The notes under the pieces were generated by a model, which worked only from the letters and a program-made list of their open reading frames with translations, ran no database searches and was not told where the DNA came from. Shown here piece after piece: positions 11,466-39,503 of a stretch of 40,190 bases of DNA (the first letter of the stretch is position 1; every line of letters begins with the position of its first letter). The stretch spans positions 1-40,190 of the forward strand of contig JAUWYL010000008.1 of assembly GCA_030615855.1 (NCBI GenBank), read 5' to 3'. Made by a program: the position numbers and the translations under genes. Source of the stretch: a bacterium (GTDB lineage Bacteria; UBP18; UBA7526).

Positions 11466-11470
11466 CCCTC

Positions 11471-11488
11471 CCTCGCTAACGCTCGGAG
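11471..11488 (-). promoter_or_regulatory. Leader word GAGCGTTAGCGAGG before the deacetylase start
   Basis: On the minus strand CTCCGAGCGTTAGCGAGG lies directly upstream of GAGGG and the ATG at 11465, so it forms part of the ribosome-binding region. Near-identical words precede three other start codons (20091, 20830, 37150). Confidence 0.7.
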
Positions 11489-11723
11489 TGATCCGTGATC
11501 GGTGATCTGTGATCAGTTCTAAGGGTTATTAGATAATCCGGCGATCGGGGACTGGGGGACCCGGATAGACGCCAAACAAGTTGGCTAAATTCTTCGCAGT
11601 GCTCAGAATGCCGGAGACCCGGATAACCTAGTCCCAGATAACCTGCGGGCACCCCGATAGCATCGGGGTCGGGATAGCCTTATTCTGTTCACGGTTCACG
11701 GTTCACTGATCACTGTTCACTGT
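11489..11723 (+). repeat. Compound intergenic element, copy A (core 11565-11612)
   Basis: A heptamer array GTGATCC/GTGATCG/GTGATCT/GTGATCA on the left (11489-11517) faces GTTCACG/GTTCACT/GATCACT on the right (11687-11723), able to pair as outer arms. Between them sits a core shared with two other spacers: ATAGACGCC, hairpin GCCAA-ACAAG-TTGGC, TAAATTCTTCG, then GTGCTCAGAATGC. A CCCCGAT-AGC-ATCGGGG hairpin lies at 11652-11668. The right array supplies the stop codon of the WaaE-like gene. The words flanking the core (CCGGAGACCCGGATAACC) differ from the other copies. Confidence 0.85.
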
Positions 11724-12460: not shown

Positions 12461-12481
12461 TTCTCCTTTAGGTAGAAATGA

Positions 12482-12720
12482 GTTAACAGTTTACAGCGAA
12501 CAGTTTACAGTAAAAAAACTAAAAGAGTATCAGAGCACCAGAACATCAGATGGAGAAGGACAGATATCAGAATTCAGATTAAATCTGACATTCTGACCCT
12601 CTGAATTCTCACTCTGATGTTCTGCATTCTGAGCACCACGAAGAATTTAGCCAGCTTGTCTGGCGTCTATACTGACATTCTATGGTTTTACTGGTTACTG
12701 TTAACTGGTTACTGGTTACT
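12482..12720 (+). repeat. Compound intergenic element, copy B (core 12624-12671, reversed)
   Basis: About 235 bp that aligns end to end, without large gaps, with the reverse complement of 37178-37408 (copy C). Outer heptamers AACAGTT/TACAGCG on the left oppose GGTTACT/GTTAACT on the right. The inner region (ATCAGAATTCAGATT, AAATCTGACATTCTGA) is self-complementary. The core with hairpin GCCAG-CTTGT-CTGGC lies near the right. Its right end encodes the last residues (QSNQ) and the TAA stop of waaF. Confidence 0.9.
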
Positions 12721-13740
12721 TTGGCATTCACGGCTTAGATATGTTTTCGCTGCTCGGAGGACATCTTCAACAGTGATTGCTTTGAAACAGGCAAGGCTTC
12801 TACATTTCCTTCTGAAGCAGGGGCTGCAGGGAACTTTCTTATAGATGATGCTACAATCCTTCTTTCTCCAGGGGCCAGTCTTCTGGGGATCGGATGAGCC
12901 AAATAAAGCAATAATGGGGGTCTTAGTAGTGGAGGCGATCTGCAAGGGACCACTATCATTAGTAATAAAGAGGTGACATCTCTCGATTAATGCCCTGAGT
13001 TGCTTGAGGGATGTCTTTCCTACCACATTTATTGGATTAGCGGTCATCTTATCTATAATCTTCTGAACAAGGGGGAGATCGTTCTTTTCCCCAAAGAGAA
13101 CTACTCTGGCTCTATAATTTTTTATTAAACGATCTGCTAAAGTAGCGTATCTCTCAGGAAACCATCTCTTGGCTGGGCCAAAATAGGCACCAGAGAAGAT
13201 GCCGATGAGTGGATCGCCCTCTTTATAGCCATTCTCGATTAGAAAGTTTCCCACCCATCCTCTGGCCTCTCTATCTTCGGCCATGAAGACCTCTTTTCCT
13301 TCTATCTCCACTCCCAAGGCCTTTATTAATCCCAAGAAGAAGTCTACCTCATGTTGAGTCCCTTTAGAACGTTTAACTACCTCAGTTAAGAAAAGATTAC
13401 GTAAACTATGGGAATACCCTACCCTCTCTGGAATTCTTGCCAGAGATAGGAGGATGGCTGGTTCATAAGAGGTGGACTGCATAATGATTCCTAGGTCAAA
13501 TTTCTTCTCTCTTAAAGTTCTAATGAGCTCAATCTTCTCTTTTAGGCTTCTTTTTCGTCTGCAAGTGATCAACTCATCGATATCTGGGTTTCCTTGGTAT
13601 ATTTCAGCCACCTTTTCCGGAACTAAAAGACTAATCTTTGCTTTTGGAAAACCACTTCTTAAAGTAGATAGGGCAGGAGTAATGAAGATAGCATCCCCCA
13701 CCCAGTTTACTCCCTTTACCAATATTTTCTTATATTCCAT
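12709..13740 (-). CDS. waaF: ADP-heptose:LPS heptosyltransferase II
   Basis: Adds the second L-glycero-D-manno-heptose to the LPS inner core in the cytoplasm. The 343-residue product has the GT9 start ILVKGVNWVGDAIFITPAL, the donor-loop GAYFGPAKRWFPERYA, the signature TNDSGPLQIASTTKTPIIALFG, and the WaaF-type C-terminal cysteine cluster CSPCFRRKC...CFKAITVEDVL. These favour WaaF over WaaC. No strong ribosome site precedes the ATG at 13740. The tail SRECQSNQ and the stop are encoded by the edge of repeat element B, replacing whatever ending it once had. It sits between lpxK (upstream) and the WaaE-like gene (downstream). Confidence 0.92.
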   Translation of the reverse strand: MEYKKILVKGVNWVGDAIFITPALSTLRSGFPKAKISLLVPEKVAEIYQGNPDIDELITCRRKRSLKEKIELIRTLREKKFDLGIIMQSTSYEPAILLSLARIPERVGYSHSLRNLFLTEVVKRSKGTQHEVDFFLGLIKALGVEIEGKEVFMAEDREARGWVGNFLIENGYKEGDPLIGIFSGAYFGPAKRWFPERYATLADRLIKNYRARVVLFGEKNDLPLVQKIIDKMTANPINVVGKTSLKQLRALIERCHLFITNDSGPLQIASTTKTPIIALFGSSDPQKTGPWRKKDCSIIYKKVPCSPCFRRKCRSLACFKAITVEDVLRAAKTYLSRECQSNQ

Positions 13741-15083: not shown

Positions 15084-15998
15084 CTACTTTTCTGGTGGTT
15101 GGCTCTTCCACCTATTATGCATCCACCACCACTGAGAGGGATATTTTCTAACATACCTTTCGATGACCTTGGTAAGTCTTTGAGTATTGGTTATCAAATC
15201 TTTCTCCTTATTCCCAGTATTAACCAAAGGGACCTCGGGCTCTATGATTAACCGATGCTTCTTTCTTTCTTCTCTAATGATGCACATGGGCACAAGAGGG
15301 GCCCCGGTTCTCTGGGCAAAGACTACTGGGCCAGCGGGAGCAGAAGCCGATCTTCCAAAGAAATCAACGAATACCCCTTCTTTCCCGGCATTCTGATCGA
15401 TGGGAATAATAAGAACTTCCTCTCTTTTTAACGAGGCTAAAGCTTTCTTAATTGCCAGGCTTTTTGGTTTAGGAAGAACGGTTCCCATATTTGAGCGGTC
15501 GCGCAGTTCCTGCATGAACCGAGCCACTCTCTTATCCTTAGGGACCTTAGCTATAACACTCGCCGGATAGCCTTCGTTGGCTATTTTTCGCAGCAGAAGA
15601 GTAATATTCCCAATATGGCCTATAATTGCAACCGCTCCCCTCCCCTTAGCTAAGGCTTTATCCAGATTCTCCTTTCCCTCAATGGCTAAGAGATGGGCGT
15701 ATCTCTTTCCATACTTCATTACTCGGAGCATCTCAAAGCCACCCTGAGCGATATGGCAATAATTCTCTTTTATTATTCTCTTTAGTTCTGGAGGGGATTT
15801 TTCTTTCCCCAGGGCCATTCTGATATTCTCCAGACCTATCTTACGATGCCTCCGGTCAATATAATAAGCCAGGTGACCAATACATCTCCCTCCCCAGAGA
15901 AGGAGGCTAAGGGGAAGGATCTTTACGGGAAGAAGGATGGTGTATAGGACGAGCCCTCCCGCACCATATCTTATCTTATCCCTTAGCTTTTTTAGCAT
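15084..15998 (-). CDS. LpxL/HtrB-family lipid A acyltransferase, paralogue 1
   Basis: A member of the lysophospholipid/lauroyl acyltransferase family that adds secondary acyl chains to Kdo-lipid A at the inner membrane. The 304-residue product has an N-terminal hydrophobic stretch, the IEGKENLDKAL motif near 107-117, IIGHIGNITLL with H128, and the C-terminal RYVRKYPSQWWWMHNRW. The acidic residue of the usual HX4(D/E) motif is T133 here. GAGGAG four nt upstream fixes the ATG, which overlaps paralogue 2 by 23 nt. It is the last and most divergent of four tandem copies. The acyl chain and position are unknown. Confidence 0.9.
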   Translation of the reverse strand: MLKKLRDKIRYGAGGLVLYTILLPVKILPLSLLLWGGRCIGHLAYYIDRRHRKIGLENIRMALGKEKSPPELKRIIKENYCHIAQGGFEMLRVMKYGKRYAHLLAIEGKENLDKALAKGRGAVAIIGHIGNITLLLRKIANEGYPASVIAKVPKDKRVARFMQELRDRSNMGTVLPKPKSLAIKKALASLKREEVLIIPIDQNAGKEGVFVDFFGRSASAPAGPVVFAQRTGAPLVPMCIIREERKKHRLIIEPEVPLVNTGNKEKDLITNTQRLTKVIERYVRKYPSQWWWMHNRWKSQPPEK

Positions 15999-16935
15999 TC
16001 ATCTCCTCTCTTCTCTTGGCCAGCCCCCGCCACCTCTTATAGATCCAGAAATATTGGGTGGGGTATCTTCTCACATAATCCTCGATAATCTTAGTAAATT
16101 TCTGGGTATTGATTAAGATATCCTTCTCCTTATCTCCGGTCAGTTCTAACTCTACTGGTGGATCGATGACTATGGTATATCCTTCATTCCCTTTCTTTCG
16201 TACAACAAACATGGGAAGAAGAGTGGCGCCGCTTCTCTTTGCTAGAGTAACTGTTCCCGGGGCCGTGGGTGCTGGCTGGCCGAAGAAGTCCACCCAGATG
16301 GCTCCCTTATCTTCAAAGAAGTTCCTATCCTGCTGGAGATAGAGGATCTTATTCTCCCTTAACCATCTCAAGGATTCTTTTACTGCTCGATGGGCTGGTA
16401 GGGCAGGAATGGAATGGATATTTATTCCTTTCTGCATATCTTTAATGAGTCGGGCTACCTTCTTATCCCGAACCTCCCGATAGAGAACGCCGAGGGGATA
16501 ACCCTCCTGGACTAATTTAGTGCCCAGAAGCATGAAGTTCCCCAGATGACCAGAGATGGTCATTATTCCCTTCCCCTTAGCTAAGGCCTTATCCAAATTC
16601 TCTTTTCCCTCAATGGTGAACATGCGATCAATAGTTTCTTGAGAGAGGCGATAACAGCGAAGTAATTCCACACTATACCTTGTTAAGTTATGGTAGATCC
16701 CTTTGGCGATCCTCTTTAGCTCTTCTTCAGATTTCTCTTTTCCAAAGGCAAGGTTCAGGTTCTTAAAGACCGTTTGATGATAGAGCCTTATGAGCCAGGC
16801 GAAATTGGCCATGCCCCGAGCAAAGAGATAGGCCATTCTCCAGGACATAGCGTTTATTAGCCAGATAGTAAACTTCAAAAGTATTCTATAGACAATCCAG
16901 TACTTCCATTCTCTTTTAATAAGCCTTCGTCTCAC
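15976..16935 (-). CDS. LpxL/HtrB-family lipid A acyltransferase, paralogue 2
   Basis: Same family and likely reaction as its neighbours: transfer of a fatty acyl group to a lipid A intermediate. Residues 12-30 are hydrophobic; FTIEGKENLDKALAKGKG precedes ISGHLGNFMLLG, with H130 and M135 where an acidic residue is expected. WVDFFGQPAPTAPGTVTLA and the C-terminal YVRRYPTQYFWIYKRWRG are family hallmarks. The start is GTG, in a GTGA four-nt overlap with the stop of paralogue 3, so translation is coupled. With 319 residues it is the longest of the four. Confidence 0.9.
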   Translation of the reverse strand: MRRRLIKREWKYWIVYRILLKFTIWLINAMSWRMAYLFARGMANFAWLIRLYHQTVFKNLNLAFGKEKSEEELKRIAKGIYHNLTRYSVELLRCYRLSQETIDRMFTIEGKENLDKALAKGKGIMTISGHLGNFMLLGTKLVQEGYPLGVLYREVRDKKVARLIKDMQKGINIHSIPALPAHRAVKESLRWLRENKILYLQQDRNFFEDKGAIWVDFFGQPAPTAPGTVTLAKRSGATLLPMFVVRKKGNEGYTIVIDPPVELELTGDKEKDILINTQKFTKIIEDYVRRYPTQYFWIYKRWRGLAKRREEMNAKKAKG

Positions 16936-17867
16936 CTCTGTGTCCTCTGTGTTTCTTTCTGTGTCCTCTGCGGTACTGTCTTCCAGCGCTTATAGGTCCA
17001 GAGCCACTGCTCGGGATATTTTCTAACGTAGGATTCAATAATCTTAGTAAACTTAGCACTATTTACCAAAATGTCTTTTTCTTTATTACCGGTTACTTCT
17101 AACTCTACGGGAGGACCAAAGATAATTCTGTGTCTATTATCCACTTTTCTAACAACGAACATGGGCAGAATAGCAGCTCCGGTTCTCTTAGCCAATACTA
17201 CCGGCCCGATTGGGGTTGCTGCGGGATAACCAAAGAAATCGACAAAGACCCCTTGAGGAGAATCACGGTCTGCCTGGATGCAGAGAACCTTATTCTTCCT
17301 TAGCCATTTTAAGGATTGGCGAACTGAAGCATAAGAAGGAGAAGTGGGTATAAGGTCAATCCCTAAGTGGCGTCCAATATTAAAGAAGAGTTTTACTACT
17401 CTGGCATCACTTGCTCCATAAATGAAAGAGGCACAGGAATAACCTTCCTGAGCCAATTTAGCGCCCATCAAGGGGAAATTGCCCAGATGACCAGAGAGTC
17501 CGATCACCCCTTTTCCTCGAGCCAGAGCAGTATTTAAATATTCTCTTCCCTGGATAGTAAATATTCTATCGATCTCTGTCTGGGAAAATTTGAAGACGCG
17601 TAATAGCTCACAGATGTTTTTAGCAATATTGCGGTAGGTCTCCCGAGCAATGGCTCTAATTTCATGAGAATCCTTCTCTCTTCCGAAAGCGCGATTAAGA
17701 TTATTAAAAACTATTTGACGCCTGACACCCAGTATCCAGGCCAAGCCAGCCAGACCATTTGCCAGGCCATACATCATCCTTAGGGGTAGAATATTTATCA
17801 GAGCAATAACCATCTTAAGCGCTACCCATCCTATCTTATGTTTGATCCACCTTCTCACCTTTTTCAT
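16932..17867 (-). CDS. LpxL/HtrB-family lipid A acyltransferase, paralogue 3
   Basis: Probable secondary lipid A acyltransferase of 311 residues. It shows FTIQGREYLNTALARGKG, LSGHLGNFPLMG (H127; P132 replaces the acidic residue), VFVDFFGYPAATPIGPVVLA and YVRKYPEQWLWTYKRWKT. A 47-bp stretch near the 3' end (16978-17024) is identical to one in paralogue 4 (17910-17956), pointing to recent duplication or gene conversion. The C-terminal RTQKETQRTQR is encoded by CTCTGTGTC words, another repeat-coded tail. AAGGA seven nt upstream supports the ATG. It overlaps paralogue 2 by four nt and follows paralogue 4 by 17 nt. Confidence 0.9.
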   Translation of the reverse strand: MKKVRRWIKHKIGWVALKMVIALINILPLRMMYGLANGLAGLAWILGVRRQIVFNNLNRAFGREKDSHEIRAIARETYRNIAKNICELLRVFKFSQTEIDRIFTIQGREYLNTALARGKGVIGLSGHLGNFPLMGAKLAQEGYSCASFIYGASDARVVKLFFNIGRHLGIDLIPTSPSYASVRQSLKWLRKNKVLCIQADRDSPQGVFVDFFGYPAATPIGPVVLAKRTGAAILPMFVVRKVDNRHRIIFGPPVELEVTGNKEKDILVNSAKFTKIIESYVRKYPEQWLWTYKRWKTVPQRTQKETQRTQR

Positions 17868-17884
17868 CCTAATATCCTTCCAGC

Positions 17885-18790
17885 CTAACTTTCTCTTTTG
17901 GGTGGTTTCGTCTTCCAGCGCTTATAGGTCCAGAGCCACTGCTCGGGATATTTTCTCACGTAATTCTCGAGTATTTTGGTATACTTTTGCACATTTACCA
18001 GGATATTTTTCTCCCTATCGCCAGTCGATTCCAGTTCCATTGGAGAATCGATGATAATCCTGTGTCTATTATTCTTCTCTCTTATGGTGATCATGGGAAG
18101 GATGGTGGCTCCGGTTCTTTTGGCTAAAATAACAGGGCCAGGAGCAGTGGCCGCTGGATGGCCGAAGAAATCAACAAATATCCCTCTGGGAAAATCCCGA
18201 TCCCCATGGAGACCCAAGATCTTGTTCTCCTTTAGCCAGGCTAAGGACTTCTGAGCCGAGAGGCGACGAGGCAAGGCAGGAATAATATCCAAACCTAAGT
18301 GATTCCCGATATCTACGAAAAGCCTTGCTCCCTTCTTGAGGCTGGTGCCATACATAACAAAAGCAAAGGGAGTGCCCTCCTGGGTGAGCCTTGCTCCCAT
18401 TAAAACAAAGTTGCCGAAGTGGCCTATAAGGGCGACCACTCCCTTTCCCTTTACAAGGGCTTTATCCAGGTTCTCCTTCCCCTCTATGGTGAACATCTCT
18501 CTAAGTTTCTCAGGTGAGATTTTATACTTGAATCCTTCACAGCCATTCTTAATCCAATTGCGATAGCTCTGGAAGGCAATTCTTCTAATCTCTTCCGCAG
18601 ACTTCTCTTTCCCAAAGGCACGATTGAGATTCTCAAAGACTGTCTTGTGGAAGATGCCCAATACCCAGGCAATCCTTGCTAAGGCCTCTGCTAAAAGATA
18701 GAGCGCCCCCCAGGGAAGGATATTAGCCAGCCAAACGAAACCTTTTAAAGATAGATATTCCAATTCATGCTTTATTTTCTTCTGCTTCAC
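17885..18790 (-). CDS. LpxL/HtrB-family lipid A acyltransferase, paralogue 4
   Basis: First-transcribed of four tandem LpxL-like genes, 301 residues. It shows FTIEGKENLDKALVKGKG, LIGHFGNFVLMG (H124; V129 replaces the acidic residue), IFVDFFGHPAATAPGPVILA and YVRKYPEQWLWTYKRWKT. The GTG start overlaps the waaA stop in GTGA, so acyl transfer is directly coupled to Kdo addition, which fits enzymes that act on Kdo2-lipid IVA. It is closest to paralogue 3 at its 3' end. Function is inferred from family and context; the missing motif acid leaves catalysis in some doubt. Confidence 0.9.
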   Translation of the reverse strand: MKQKKIKHELEYLSLKGFVWLANILPWGALYLLAEALARIAWVLGIFHKTVFENLNRAFGKEKSAEEIRRIAFQSYRNWIKNGCEGFKYKISPEKLREMFTIEGKENLDKALVKGKGVVALIGHFGNFVLMGARLTQEGTPFAFVMYGTSLKKGARLFVDIGNHLGLDIIPALPRRLSAQKSLAWLKENKILGLHGDRDFPRGIFVDFFGHPAATAPGPVILAKRTGATILPMITIREKNNRHRIIIDSPMELESTGDREKNILVNVQKYTKILENYVRKYPEQWLWTYKRWKTKPPKRES

Positions 18791-20186: not shown

Positions 20187-20830
20187 TGAACGAAGTAGTT
20201 GTCTGCTTCCTCTGTGAGCCTGTTTAGGACTTCTTCTAATTCTTGGGTCTTTTCTTTTATTATCTTTTGTGATGCTTTAGGTGGAACCCTAATTGGTTTT
20301 CCATATATAATTATTCCCCGGCTAAAAAAACGAGGAAGGATGAACTTGCTCCAGTTATCAAGATAGACCTTCCTTCTATTAGCATTGGAGCTCAATGGGA
20401 TAATAGGCATCTGAGTCTTCTGAGCGAGGCGGATTACCCCTTCTTTTACCTTATAGATGGGGCCCCTCGGGCCATCGGGAGTAAAGGCACCATCGAAACC
20501 CTCTTTTAATTTCTTAGCCATCAGAAGAAGCGCCCTGCCTCCACCGCGCGATGTAGAACCGCGAAGGGTCCTACTCCCTAAGTGGTGGAGGATGCGGGCA
20601 AGATACTCACCATCACGATGTCTGCTCACCAGAGCATAGATACTCTGATTGCGCAGGTGATAGGTGGGTAGAAGCATCCTTCCATGCCAGAAGGCATAGA
20701 TGACTCTTTCTCCCTTTTTGCGAAGCCTTTTTAGAGGCCCCTCGCCTTTTATCTCGATTTTCAATGTCTTCCCCAAGAGAAGCATAAAGAGCCAACCGAG
20801 AAAGGACATTATGCTTGGAGAAAATTTCAT
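20180..20830 (-). CDS. DUF374 lysophospholipid acyltransferase-like protein
   Basis: A 216-residue membrane-associated protein of the DUF374 family, related to 1-acylglycerol-phosphate acyltransferases and often found beside waaA and msbA. Seen are an N-terminal hydrophobic segment (residues 6-22), the IYAFWHGRMLLP block at about 44-55, LVSRHRDGEYLARIL, GSTSRGGGRALL and the family motif FTPDGPRGPIYKVKEGVIRLA, followed by PIIPLSSNA. By family and place between msbA and waaA it probably modifies a lipid A or phospholipid acyl chain, but no DUF374 substrate can be assigned from sequence. The leader word CTCCGAGCGTTAGCGAGG lies directly upstream of the ATG. Confidence 0.88.
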   Translation of the reverse strand: MKFSPSIMSFLGWLFMLLLGKTLKIEIKGEGPLKRLRKKGERVIYAFWHGRMLLPTYHLRNQSIYALVSRHRDGEYLARILHHLGSRTLRGSTSRGGGRALLLMAKKLKEGFDGAFTPDGPRGPIYKVKEGVIRLAQKTQMPIIPLSSNANRRKVYLDNWSKFILPRFFSRGIIIYGKPIRVPPKASQKIIKEKTQELEEVLNRLTEEADNYFVQT

Positions 20831-20835
20831 CTACC

Positions 20836-20853
20836 CCTCGCTAACGCTCGGAG
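20836..20853 (-). promoter_or_regulatory. Leader word before the DUF374 gene start
   Basis: CTCCGAGCGTTAGCGAGG on the minus strand, then GGTAG and the ATG at 20830. It is identical over 18 nt to the word at 11471-11488 upstream of the deacetylase. Confidence 0.7.
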
Positions 20854-23005: not shown

Positions 23006-25075
23006 TTACTTGGTTGATTCCAAGGTTTCCAGGATATTTTCCGCTGCTCTTCTCGGTGCCCCAGGCTCTCCCAGTTTCTCCTTTACTTTGGCCAGTTCGG
23101 CCTTCATCCCATTCAATCTTTTAGAATCCTGCAAGATCTTTAGGGCAGCTTGGGCGATTTTTTCTGGTCTTGCTCCGTATTGCAGAAACTCAGGAACTAT
23201 TTTTCTACCGGCTACGACATTCACCAATCCAATATAGGGAATCTTTAACAAGATCTTCGATAATAACCAGGTAGTGAAATGGACCTTATAGATAATAATC
23301 ATGGGAAGGCCTAAACAGGCGTTCTCTAAAGTGGCGCTTCCCGAGGCCACCAGGGCAAAGTCCATTATATTCCGAGCATCAAAGGTAGGATCCTCCACTA
23401 TCCTAATAGAGGAATTTACCCTCTTTAATACAGTATTCACCCTTTCTCTGGAGAGGGTGGGGGCCAGGGGTAGGATGAACTGAGAATCTGGTATTCTTTC
23501 CTTTATTCTCTTTGCGGTTTCAACCATTACTGGAAGGAGGCGCTTGATCTCTCCTTCTCTACTACCTGGTAAGAGGCCAATGATGGGTTTATTCTTCTCA
23601 AGTTTGAACCTCTCATAGGCTTTCTCCTTAGGAAGAAGAGGTTTAACGATATCCATGAAGGGATGGCCGATAAAACTTACCGGGCAACCCGCTTCCTGAT
23701 AAATTCTTTCCTCAAAGGGAAGAATGACGACCATCTTTTTCACTAAATTGGTGATCTTCTTTACCCTTTTCCTTCCCCAGGCCCAGACCTGGGGACTGAT
23801 GTAATAATTAACTGGGATATTCTTCTTTCTGGCCTTCTTCGCCACCCTCAAGTTGAACCCGGGATTATCGATTAAGATTATCCCCTGAGGCCTCTCCTTC
23901 TCCATGAGATCGTCTAACTTCTTGAGGATTCTACGAAAGACTTTAATATGTTTCAGGACCTCAACGAAACCAACTACTGCTATCTGGGTAATATCGGAGA
24001 CCAGCCTCACCCCGGCCTTCTCCATCCTCCTTCCCCCAATCCCAAAGAGTTCTATCTCTGGAGAAAGATTCTTTAGTTCTTGGACAAGATAGGCTCCTTG
24101 GAGATCGCCACTGGCCTCTCCGGCCAAAATCATGATCCTCCTCTGGGGCTTAATTTGACGAGATATCTCCCAAGCAATGGCCAGCGCCTCCCTCCCTGCT
24201 TCTCCGGAAACCAGGGGTTCCTGGCCTCTCTGAACGGCGTGAATAAAGGCCTCCAGTTCCAACTTTAAGGGTTCTATCTTCTCAATCTCTGGTTGGGAAG
24301 GGACGATCCTCACCCCACCATCTGGGGTAATCTCCCGACGATAGACTAAAAGTTCCTGATTGATATAATCTAAGGAGAGATAGGCATCCCTCTGAAATAT
24401 CCTTATCTTCCTGGTCTCCTCTTTTGTCACGCGACTGGCGGTGATATTTGCGATACAGCCATTCTCAAATGTGATTCGGGTGTTGGCAATGTCCTCTTCC
24501 TGGGAGAGGACAGGTACTCCTACCGCCTCTATTCTCTTGACCGGTGAATTGACCAGGGAGAGGATAATATCGATGTCGTGGATCATGAGATCCATAACCA
24601 CTCCTATATTGGCTGCCCGGGGCTTAAAGGGGCCCAAACGGTGGCATTCTATAAACCTCGGGTCCTTGATTATCCTATTTAGGGCGGAGACCGCGGGATT
24701 GAATCTTTCAATATGGCCTACCTGCAAAACGAGTTTCTTCTTCTTCGCTAATCTGAGTAGTTCGTCTGCTTCTCCCAGAGTCTGGGTCATGGGCTTCTCA
24801 ATCAGAATATGGACCCCAACATTCAAGAAGTCCTTACTTATTCTATAATGGAGTTCTGTGGGAACGGCGATGCTTGCAACATCCACTCTTTTTAAGACTT
24901 GAGTATATTCTGTATAAGCAGAGGTTTTATATTCCTGGGCGATCCTCCTTGACCTCTCTTCATCGATATCGACCACAGCCACCAGTTCCACATCAGACAT
25001 CTCAGAGTAGATCCGAGCGTGATGCTGTCCCAGGTGTCCTACACCAATTACTGCTATTTTAATTAGCTTCGTCAT
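23006..25075 (-). CDS. lpxB: Gfo/Idh/MocA oxidoreductase fused to lipid-A-disaccharide synthase
   Basis: One 689-residue frame holds two enzymes. Residues 1-314 are a Gfo/Idh/MocA NAD(P)-dependent oxidoreductase: Rossmann motif AVIGVGHLGQHHA at 8-20, the EKPM motif near 94-97 and GHIERFNP. Residues 315-689 are LpxB, which joins UDP-2,3-diacylglucosamine and lipid X: MILAGEASGDLQGA, VWAWGRKRVKKI, LPGSREGEI and ASGSATLENACLG. The LpxB part has its normal length of about 375. An AGGAGG three nt before the internal ATG at 24133 could also start free LpxB. In some bacteria a related oxidoreductase (GnnA) makes the 3-keto sugar for amide-linked lipid A, but its aminotransferase GnnB is not in this window. 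GGGAG precedes the first ATG. Confidence 0.93.
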   Translation of the reverse strand: MTKLIKIAVIGVGHLGQHHARIYSEMSDVELVAVVDIDEERSRRIAQEYKTSAYTEYTQVLKRVDVASIAVPTELHYRISKDFLNVGVHILIEKPMTQTLGEADELLRLAKKKKLVLQVGHIERFNPAVSALNRIIKDPRFIECHRLGPFKPRAANIGVVMDLMIHDIDIILSLVNSPVKRIEAVGVPVLSQEEDIANTRITFENGCIANITASRVTKEETRKIRIFQRDAYLSLDYINQELLVYRREITPDGGVRIVPSQPEIEKIEPLKLELEAFIHAVQRGQEPLVSGEAGREALAIAWEISRQIKPQRRIMILAGEASGDLQGAYLVQELKNLSPEIELFGIGGRRMEKAGVRLVSDITQIAVVGFVEVLKHIKVFRRILKKLDDLMEKERPQGIILIDNPGFNLRVAKKARKKNIPVNYYISPQVWAWGRKRVKKITNLVKKMVVILPFEERIYQEAGCPVSFIGHPFMDIVKPLLPKEKAYERFKLEKNKPIIGLLPGSREGEIKRLLPVMVETAKRIKERIPDSQFILPLAPTLSRERVNTVLKRVNSSIRIVEDPTFDARNIMDFALVASGSATLENACLGLPMIIIYKVHFTTWLLSKILLKIPYIGLVNVVAGRKIVPEFLQYGARPEKIAQAALKILQDSKRLNGMKAELAKVKEKLGEPGAPRRAAENILETLESTK

Positions 25076-26913: not shown

Positions 26914-26937
26914 TTTTCGTTAAACCTCCTAAGTAAC

Positions 26938-27009
26938 CAGTAACTAGCGAACAGTAAAAAACTGGTTACTGTAAACTGTTAACTGTGAACTCCCCGATGA
27001 AATCGGGGG
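26938..27009. repeat. Inverted heptamers with A-rich loop and CCCCGAT hairpin after lpxC-fabZ
   Basis: CAGT-AAAAA-ACTG at 26952-26964 sits within GGTTACT/GTAAACT/GTTAACT/GTGAACT heptamers. CCCCGAT-GAA-ATCGGGG (26992-27008) directly follows the lpxC-fabZ stop on the minus strand, but no U-tract follows. Confidence 0.75.
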
Positions 27010-28392
27010 TCATTCCCCCTCCCTCAGGACAAGGGCGAACATGAGCTCTGCCCCAGCCACTAACTTATCTTCGACATAGGCCCTGGTGGTCATCTTCCCC
27101 ATTCTTCCTTTAATCTTGCTCACCTCTGCCTCGAGACGCAAAGTATCACCGGGGACTACTGGTTTTCTGAAACGAACCTTGTCAATGCCTGTAAAGTAGG
27201 CCAGTTTCCCGGAATGTTCTCGCTTCGATAGGAGTAAAATTCCTCCTACCTGGGCCATGGCCTCAACGATGAGCACCCCGGGCATAACCGGATGGCCTGG
27301 GAAGTGCCCCTGAAAAAACTCCTCATTTATTGAAACATTCTTAATCCCCACTGCCCTCTTATCCTCTTCGAGTTCAAGGATCCTATCTACTAAGAGGAAG
27401 GGATATCTATGGGGAAGGATCTTCTGAATGTCCTTAATACCTAAGATTTCTTTAGTCCTTATCCTCTTCTGAATTTCTTCTATTTCTTTCTTTAAAGGAA
27501 TCTTCTCTCTCTTCAGGCTATGGATTTTCTTTACCAGCTCCACGTTTGCCCCATGGCCACTCTTTAAGGCAATGATATGGGCTTTAAGGGGGGGGCCGAT
27601 GAGATATAAATCTCCAAGTAAATCGAGGATCTTGTGGCGCACAAACTCATCGGGAAACCTTAAGGGTTCTTTATTCAATATTCCTTTCTCGCCGATGACC
27701 ACGGCATTCTCCAGGCTCCCCCCTTTAATGAGCCCCCTCTCCCTCAGTTCCCTTACTTCGCTCTCAAAGCCAAAGGTCCTTGCGGGAGCGATTTCTTTTA
27801 CGAAGGTATCCTCATTTATGACAAAGGAAGCAAACTGGGTCCTCAGGACCGGATGGTCAAAGTCAATGGTATAACTTATCTTGAGCTCCTCGTTTGGTAG
27901 GGCGATGAGATAGACATCCCCCTTCGCTGAAGCTTCGGAGGATAGTCCACCGAAGTCTTGACGAAGGTGGACATCCTCTTTTATATAGAAAACAGGCTCT
28001 TTTAACTCTAAGTATTCTCTTTCTTTTTCCTGCTCAACGATCCCTGCTTCTTTTAGGGCTTGAGCAAAGGGAAGGGCACTTCCATCCGCTGCCGGTGCTT
28101 CATCTGAATCTATCTCAATAATTAAATTATCAATACTCAAACCGGTCAAGGCCGCCAAGATATGCTCGACACTCTGCACTTTTAGTTCACCTTCTCCGAG
28201 ACTTGTTTCGCGAGAGGCTTTAATCACTTTAGTAACTTCTACTACTATCTGGGGCTTGCCCCCAAGGTCCACCCGAACAAACCTTACTCCACTATCTACG
28301 GGAGCAGGCTTGAAGGTAATCTTTACCTTTCTCCCAGTATGTAATCCGTTCCCAGAGTAACTGATTTCTCTTCCAATGGTCCTCTGTTTCAT
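27010..28392 (-). CDS. lpxC/fabZ: LpxC-FabZ fusion: UDP-3-O-acyl-GlcNAc deacetylase / 3-hydroxyacyl-ACP dehydratase
   Basis: Residues 1-300 are LpxC, the zinc deacetylase committing to lipid [10 protein letters not shown] (E76, H77), SGHGANVE (H280), and [11 protein letters not shown] giving zinc ligands H253 and D257. Residues about 315-460 are FabZ, the fatty acid dehydratase, with [20 protein letters not shown] (H363, E377). Both draw on 3-hydroxyacyl-ACP, so fusion may balance membrane and lipid A synthesis; such fusions are known in Bacteroidetes and some other phyla. A short insertion ([14 protein letters not shown], about 145-158) encoded by TTCG-rich words sits in LpxC. The start overlaps the lpxD stop as ATGA. 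Confidence 0.96.
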
Positions 28393-35199: not shown

Positions 35200-35290
35200 T
35201 AATGGTTTACCCGCTCCCCGATTCACCGGGGTCGCTGTTTACCGCTTACGGTAAAAAACCGTACACCGTAAACCGTTAACCGTAAACCAA
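35200..35290. repeat. CCGTTAA heptamer array with hairpins between mcsB and clpC
   Basis: CCCCG-ATTCAC-CGGGG (35216-35231), a perfect TACGGT-AAAAA-ACCGTA stem-loop (35247-35263) and CCGTAAA/CCGTTAA heptamers (35266-35287). It lies in the 131-nt spacer upstream of clpC. The structures lack a terminator U-tract. Confidence 0.75.
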
Positions 35291-37177: not shown

Positions 37178-37408
37178 TTTACAGTAACCAGCGAACAGTA
37201 ACCAGCAAAACCACAGAATATCAGTATAGACGCCAGACAAGCTGGCTAAATTTTTCGCGGTGCTCAGAATGCAGAATAGCAGAATGAGAATTTAGAAGGT
37301 CAAAGTATCAGATTTTGTCTGATTTCTGATAACTGACCCTCTCCATCTGATATTCTGGTTATCTGATGCTCTTTTACTTTTTTACTGTAAACTGGTTACT
37401 GGTTACTA
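37178..37408 (-). repeat. Compound intergenic element, copy C (core 37226-37272)
   Basis: Its reverse complement aligns along its whole length with copy B (12482-12720). It has outer CAGTAAC/CAGCGAA heptamers on the left and GTAAACT/GGTTACT on the right, a core with hairpin GCCAG-ACAAG-CTGGC and GTGCTCAGAATGC, and an inner ATCAGATTTTGTCTGATTTCTGAT inverted pair (two halves ATCAGATTTTGTC and TGATTTCTGAT). It occupies nearly all of the ilvE-mcsA spacer and abuts the ilvE stop codon. Confidence 0.9.
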
Positions 37409-37409
37409 T

Positions 37410-39446: not shown

Positions 39447-39492
39447 TAACCAGTTTTTTTACTGTAAACTGTAAACCGTTAACCGTTAACCT
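39447..39492. repeat. Inverted heptamer hairpin between lolC/E and lolD
   Basis: CAGT-TTTTTT-ACTG (39451-39464) followed by GTAAACT/GTAAACC/GTTAACC heptamers. Same layout as 26938-26990: short GT/AC stem with an A/T-only loop in a heptamer array. Confidence 0.7.
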
Positions 39493-39503
39493 CTATTCTT
39501 CCG

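Follow-up and report, generated by a model that had tools for sequence, protein, structure and literature searches.

The hairpin repeat that occurs three times in the window, by which we mean the whole stretch of 40,190 nucleotides analysed here, is in our judgement best regarded as a non-coding, dispersed, REP-like DNA fold-back repeat of UBP18, composed of two hairpins whose arms would owe their continued match at least in part to template switching during replication; we hold this reading with middling confidence. Established for the unit are its copy number, its restriction to the family, its intergenic position without strand preference and its turnover at orthologous sites. The earlier note had taken an A-T for G-C exchange in one of the copies as a sign of selection for a folded structure. 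The exchange is real, and the covariation of the kind that was claimed lies in the second hairpin of the unit rather than in the first, where the exchange sits.

The repeat unit, its copies and their setting

Copies A, B and C are all present where, and with the sequence with which, they were first described, and are pairwise 83–91% identical over 47–60 nt. The unit of ~47 nt, ATAGACGCCAGACAAGCTGGCTAAATTCTTCGCGGTGCTCAGAATGC, joins two adjacent hairpins, GCCAG-ACAAG-CTGGC and ATTCT-TC-GC-NNN-GC-TC-AGAAT; hairpin 1, with an ACAAG loop, is followed by hairpin 2, with a TCGC-NNN-GCTC centre, and the whole lies inside larger intergenic palindromic arrays.

11565–11612, plus strand: copy A, core of the 47-nt two-hairpin repeat, antisense to both flanking genes
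11571–11585, plus strand: hairpin 1 of copy A, GCCAA-ACAAG-TTGGC, with the exchanged pair A11575/T11581
11589–11609, plus strand: hairpin 2 of copy A, ATTCT-TC-GC-AGT-GC-TC-AGAAT, the form that the widespread ATTCTTCRC-NNN-GCTCAGAATG hairpin takes in UBP18
12624–12670, minus strand: core of copy B, hairpin 1 at 12664–12650 and hairpin 2 at 12646–12626, reading down
37226–37272, plus strand: core of copy C, hairpin 1 at 37232–37246 and hairpin 2 at 37250–37270

The 3' half of hairpin 2, GTGCTCAGAATGC, has exactly three exact matches in the window and four at up to two mismatches, against 0.66 expected, four being reached by no shuffle; because this count exceeds expectation, the three-copy repeat is not due to chance. 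The same letters had been described as an invariant 3' flank, suggestive of a protein-binding or recognition part. Invariance holds among the three window copies only, as hairpin 2 takes 16 different sequences across 30 copies, and the presumed recognition part is actually half of the second hairpin. Folded as DNA by a nearest-neighbour program, the 48-nt core shows no unusual stability (z −1.5 to 0), though such a program may give GNA loops and sheared GA pairs too little weight.

A covariance model (at least 52 bits) finds 30 confident full copies in five of the six UBP18 genomes, and the stem counts below are taken from these 30 distinct copies, with the reservation that orthologous copies inflate repeat counts. 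By BLAST, 12 copies lie in the source genome (1.375 Mb, 45 contigs), which is incomplete (93.6%), as are the other UBP18 genomes examined. Nearly all 30 copies are intergenic according to an ORF heuristic, three or four overlapping a short, probably spurious ORF call, and they run both sense and antisense to the neighbouring genes with no strand bias. When all of GTDB was scanned with the pattern GACGCC-N9-GGCTARATTCTTC, 14 contigs matched, 13 of them in four MAGs, namely one UBP18 (UBA7526) and CSMAG_2758, HyVt-354 and KR13, which appear to be the relatives G002, G004 and G005. The fourteenth match, a Kiritimatiellae contig from roe deer cecum (L169), has the 5' pattern once and could be chance or a relative. 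A strict 45-nt pattern matched nothing in the GTDB genomes, although the looser pattern did find UBP18; the 5' half of the unit is absent from the viral contigs searched, and a literature search for the letters of the repeat returned no description.

The three copies lie in the following palindromic arrays.

11486–11722: array of palindromic words with copy A near its centre, between the glycosyltransferase-2 and polysaccharide-deacetylase genes; RNA fold z −4.4
12481–12725: array with copy B, outer AGTAACC-type words and an inner ATCAG-type module; RNA fold z −6.8
37178–37409: array with copy C, outer arms common to G002 and G005, inner module different; RNA fold z −6.9

Such arrays consist of modules set one within another, and they turn over fast. 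In G001 and G002 the site of copy A has neither spacer nor array; at the copy B site G004, which belongs to another genus, keeps the unit with an internal deletion, and G002 has the outer palindrome only. In that G004 locus (L028) the inner module was apparently deleted between two GTGCTC copies. Many spacers of the window are likewise nested imperfect palindromes of 7–8-nt words (AGTAACC, GTTAACC and others) that are replaced at the orthologous sites of relatives, for example at 12482–12725, 26928–26991, 35258–35288, 37178–37409 and 39452–39495. As for the genes of the window, four consecutive ORFs that resemble each other and carry repeated blocks of DNA (15084–18790) look like tandem lipid A acyltransferase-type genes, and two long ORFs appear by eye to be fusions, one of an oxidoreductase with an LpxB-like protein (23006–25075) and one of LpxC-like and FabZ-like proteins (27010–28392).

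The exchanged base pair of hairpin 1

Copy A reads GCCAA/TTGGC where copies B and C, both with GCCAG-ACAAG-CTGGC as hairpin 1, read GCCAG/CTGGC. Among the 30 copies, 24 stems have the consensus pairs, one of these with a G-T pair, and the innermost A-T pair free of any other change occurs once, in copy A itself. Four copies of one subgroup read GCCTA/TTGGC, the inner A-T being joined by an adjacent T-T mismatch, and a single copy has an uncompensated A-C mismatch (GCCAA/CTGGC) where its orthologue has G-C. The innermost G-C is thus exchanged for A-T in five of the 30 copies, through one or two events, and unpaired changes are found in five as well, compensated and uncompensated departures being equally frequent. 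The earlier note had named mismatches as common as compensated pairs as the result that would speak against its reading, and this stem comes very near to it. With 23 copies, shuffles match the observed paired cells and covariation score in 19 of 500 cases and the number of double-change pairs in 162 of 500. Because these measures are barely above the shuffles, hairpin 1 alone does not demonstrate selection, and the covariation claim for this stem is weak.

One alternative is that the exchange in copy A was a single neutral accident, or a conversion by a sister repeat, with hairpin 1 under no structural selection. The equal frequency of uncompensated changes favours such an explanation, as does the presence of the same inner CAA/TTG pairs in the sister repeat ATGAGCCAARCAAGTTGTCTC at ~54 places, on account of which the A-T inner pair may even be the older state. 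Against it, 145 of 150 cells of hairpin 1 are still paired, and a core-only tree sets copy A apart from the other A-T copies, which suggests, with low support, two separate exchange events. On balance we consider this explanation possible, somewhat on the unlikely side.

The sister repeat itself, AAATGAGCCAARCAAGTTGTCTCTTT with TCGCNNNGCTC, was seen at ~54 places in the six genomes (L506–L535 and related loci), in places in tandem with a period of 41–43 bases (contigs C21 of G001 and C30 of G005). Its left arm is the reverse complement of its middle arm in 19 of 38 copies, compared to 7.9 after shuffling, which is what successive fold-back copying would give.

Hairpin 2 class: covariation, fold and dispersal

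Hairpin 2 belongs to a class that reaches well beyond the family. Its ATTCTTCRC-NNN-GCTCAGAATG core is found in 15 of 98 genomes, including 10 of the 92 outside the family, compared to none of the same 98 for a reversed-pattern control, and in 97 stretches of the IMG/VR viral collection. The flanks of this widespread form are sharply bounded (RAG...ACA, which is TGTC-ATTCT on the other strand), and in 126 of 157 contexts its loop is TNC, or GNA on the other strand.

The covariation of this class is real and strong, and in this way the relatives support the idea that a fold is of importance. In UBP18 the two inner pairs covary where the outer arms match (Fisher p 3.6e-16 and 2.8e-15, n=157), compared to p 0.91 and 0.035 in a control with non-matching arms. 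The inner pairs of the sister repeat, GC/GC, AC/GT or GT/AC, are with few exceptions matched (Fisher p 3.6e-4 and 3.3e-4, each distinct sequence being counted once), and at one orthologous pair of loci (L257/L245) a C-A mismatch in G002 stands opposite a T-A pair in G000. IMG/VR loci fetched by the hairpin centre alone have arms that differ from locus to locus yet match each other, with complementarity of 0.47–0.51 against 0.24, and of 0.65 and 0.59 against 0.32 and 0.30, in shuffles; since related patterns served to retrieve the loci from public collections, their neighbourhoods are enriched for such repeats.

Written along what we call the GA strand, the class has the form arm-GA-XY-G(N)NA-Y'X'-GA-arm'. 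By far the commonest internal loop is GA/GA, both in IMG/VR after removal of the query matches (36, no other loop exceeding 5) and in UBP18 (26, no other exceeding 2). Read on the opposite strand, hairpin 2 of copy A shows this loop too. Four-base loops are often GNNA, with T as the third base in 18 of 25, and being mostly GNYA they are unlike the GNRA loops of RNA. Loops of GNA or GNNA on two or more inner G-C pairs are seen in the relatives of wide distribution, in 126 of 157 loops, and in a large share of the UBP18 relatives, and are absent from the window copies, whose hairpin 2 loops are AGT and GGT and which fit the class by arms and internal loop only. Two related mini-hairpins with a GTTA loop do occur in the window.

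11469–11488, minus strand: CTCC-GA-GC-GTTA-GC-GA-GGGA, closely preceding the start codon of the deacetylase gene
20834–20853, minus strand: CTCC-GA-GC-GTTA-GC-GA-GGGG, upstream of an ORF whose start is at 20830

Extraordinarily stable DNA mini-hairpins are formed when a GNA or GNNA loop is closed by two or more G-C pairs, GCGAAGC melting at 78 °C (PMC4686876). Because the class keeps the tandem GA/GA internal loop together with GNA/GNNA loops on two inner pairs, we infer that folded single-stranded DNA is the form in which the unit matters or spreads, perhaps during replication. Its arms would be made complementary, and repaired, at least in part through template switching at the hairpin or through fold-back copying there. 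Template switching is known to create hairpins and to restore their pairing, giving compensatory changes without RNA selection (PMC8794818), and to homogenise the arms of DNA hairpins (PMC8604942). Since it yields compensatory pairs in DNA hairpins too, such pairs need not mean selection on an RNA, and with upkeep of this kind the A-T for G-C exchange of copy A need not reflect it either. Points against this reading are that the hairpin 2 loops in the window are not of the GNA type, that folding gives the core no excess stability as DNA, and that neither an intermediate nor an enzyme nor a mobilisation event came to light.

An alternative explanation is that the spacers are transcribed and that their hairpins, as RNA, terminate transcription, mark sites of processing or stabilise mRNA, selection on the RNA keeping the compensatory changes. 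The repeat-bearing spacers (246–261 nt) do fold far better as RNA than their shuffles, strongly so on the transcribed strand; most arrays lie between co-directional genes, and for REPs as a whole transcription is often plausible (PMC3733652). However, the core stands in both orientations to genes and the GA strand is coding or template without bias (13:20), the tetraloops are of the GNYA type just described, no known structured RNA of Rfam is matched at the curated score, and whole arrays differ across orthologous sites, so that we consider an RNA element improbable. The best Rfam matches (E 0.035 and 0.73) fall far under the cut-offs and concern eukaryotic families. The ratio of G-T to A-C intermediates was also considered as a test for RNA; neither is rarer than the other (3:4 and 4:5), so that the ratio favours neither DNA nor RNA.

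Just as improbable, to our mind, is a non-autonomous REP- or MITE-like mobile element whose hairpins a transposase would read as single-stranded DNA: a precise 47-nt unit in differing contexts (copy A among other words than the rest), and four copies placed on the other arm of the ATCAG module, at a position where the unit is missing in relatives, would suit it, but a site common to different genera implies slow movement, no clean target-site duplication is seen, and the six UBP18 genomes, incomplete as they are, contain no Y1 (TnpA-REP) transposase (PF01797), reverse transcriptase (RVT_1) or IS110-type transposase (Transposase_20) in searches with detected controls (in 5 of 14 for PF01797). 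The AGAATA flanking some copies was rejected as a target-site duplication, its 3' copy being part of hairpin 2 and its left side variable.

Returning to the DNA fold-back repeat, one may go further and envisage a cross-bacterial class with fixed centres (GA-GC-G(N)NA-GC-GA, perhaps also GA-G-CTTGT-C-GA) which copies its own free complementary arms at replication, self-primed or by template switching, and of which UBP18 would have joined two hairpins into a single unit that disperses without a transposase. We regard this extension as doubtful. Covariation is commonly held to prove that an RNA is functional; the repeat class described here covaries strongly with DNA-type loops and no preferred strand, and it offers a natural setting in which to ask whether replication on its own can maintain the match between hairpin arms. 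One structural rule would unite REP-like repeats from unrelated bacteria.

Relation to known repeats

The palindromic word spacers recall the TAACTGA heptamer repeats of marine Beggiatoaceae (PMC4679880). The GNA/GNNA loop rule on two inner pairs, which the class follows though hairpin 2 of the window copies does not, is also that of DNA mini-hairpins. In the telomere hairpins of Streptomyces the stems end in GNA or CTTG loops (PMC7205883); unlike these, the UBP18 repeats are internal and chromosomal. GTAG REPs, which are mobilised by RAYT (TnpA-REP) proteins, are likewise dispersed intergenic hairpins; the terminal GTAG motif is absent from the aligned copies, and, as given above, so is the Y1 transposase from the six genomes.

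Of the groups described so far, the CGTC-tagged REPs (Di Nocera et al. 2013) come closest, being short intergenic palindromes of many phyla, with a tag that is often TGTC, an AT-initial stem that is variable but complementary, and no dedicated transposase (PMC3733652). The window copies nevertheless differ from it in both tag and stem. At the tag position, where CGTC, TGTC or CCTC would be expected, they read CTGC (B and C) or CCGGC (A), the GA strand being CTGCATTCT in B and C and CCGGCATTCT in A. Their stem does begin with AT; in place of 8–9 bp and a loop of 4–5 nt, it has 5 bp, GA/GA, 2 bp and a 3-nt loop, and hairpin 2 is fused to another hairpin. The widespread relatives of hairpin 2, in contrast, do carry the tag, reading TGTCATTCT, with TGTC-ATTCT on the GA strand.
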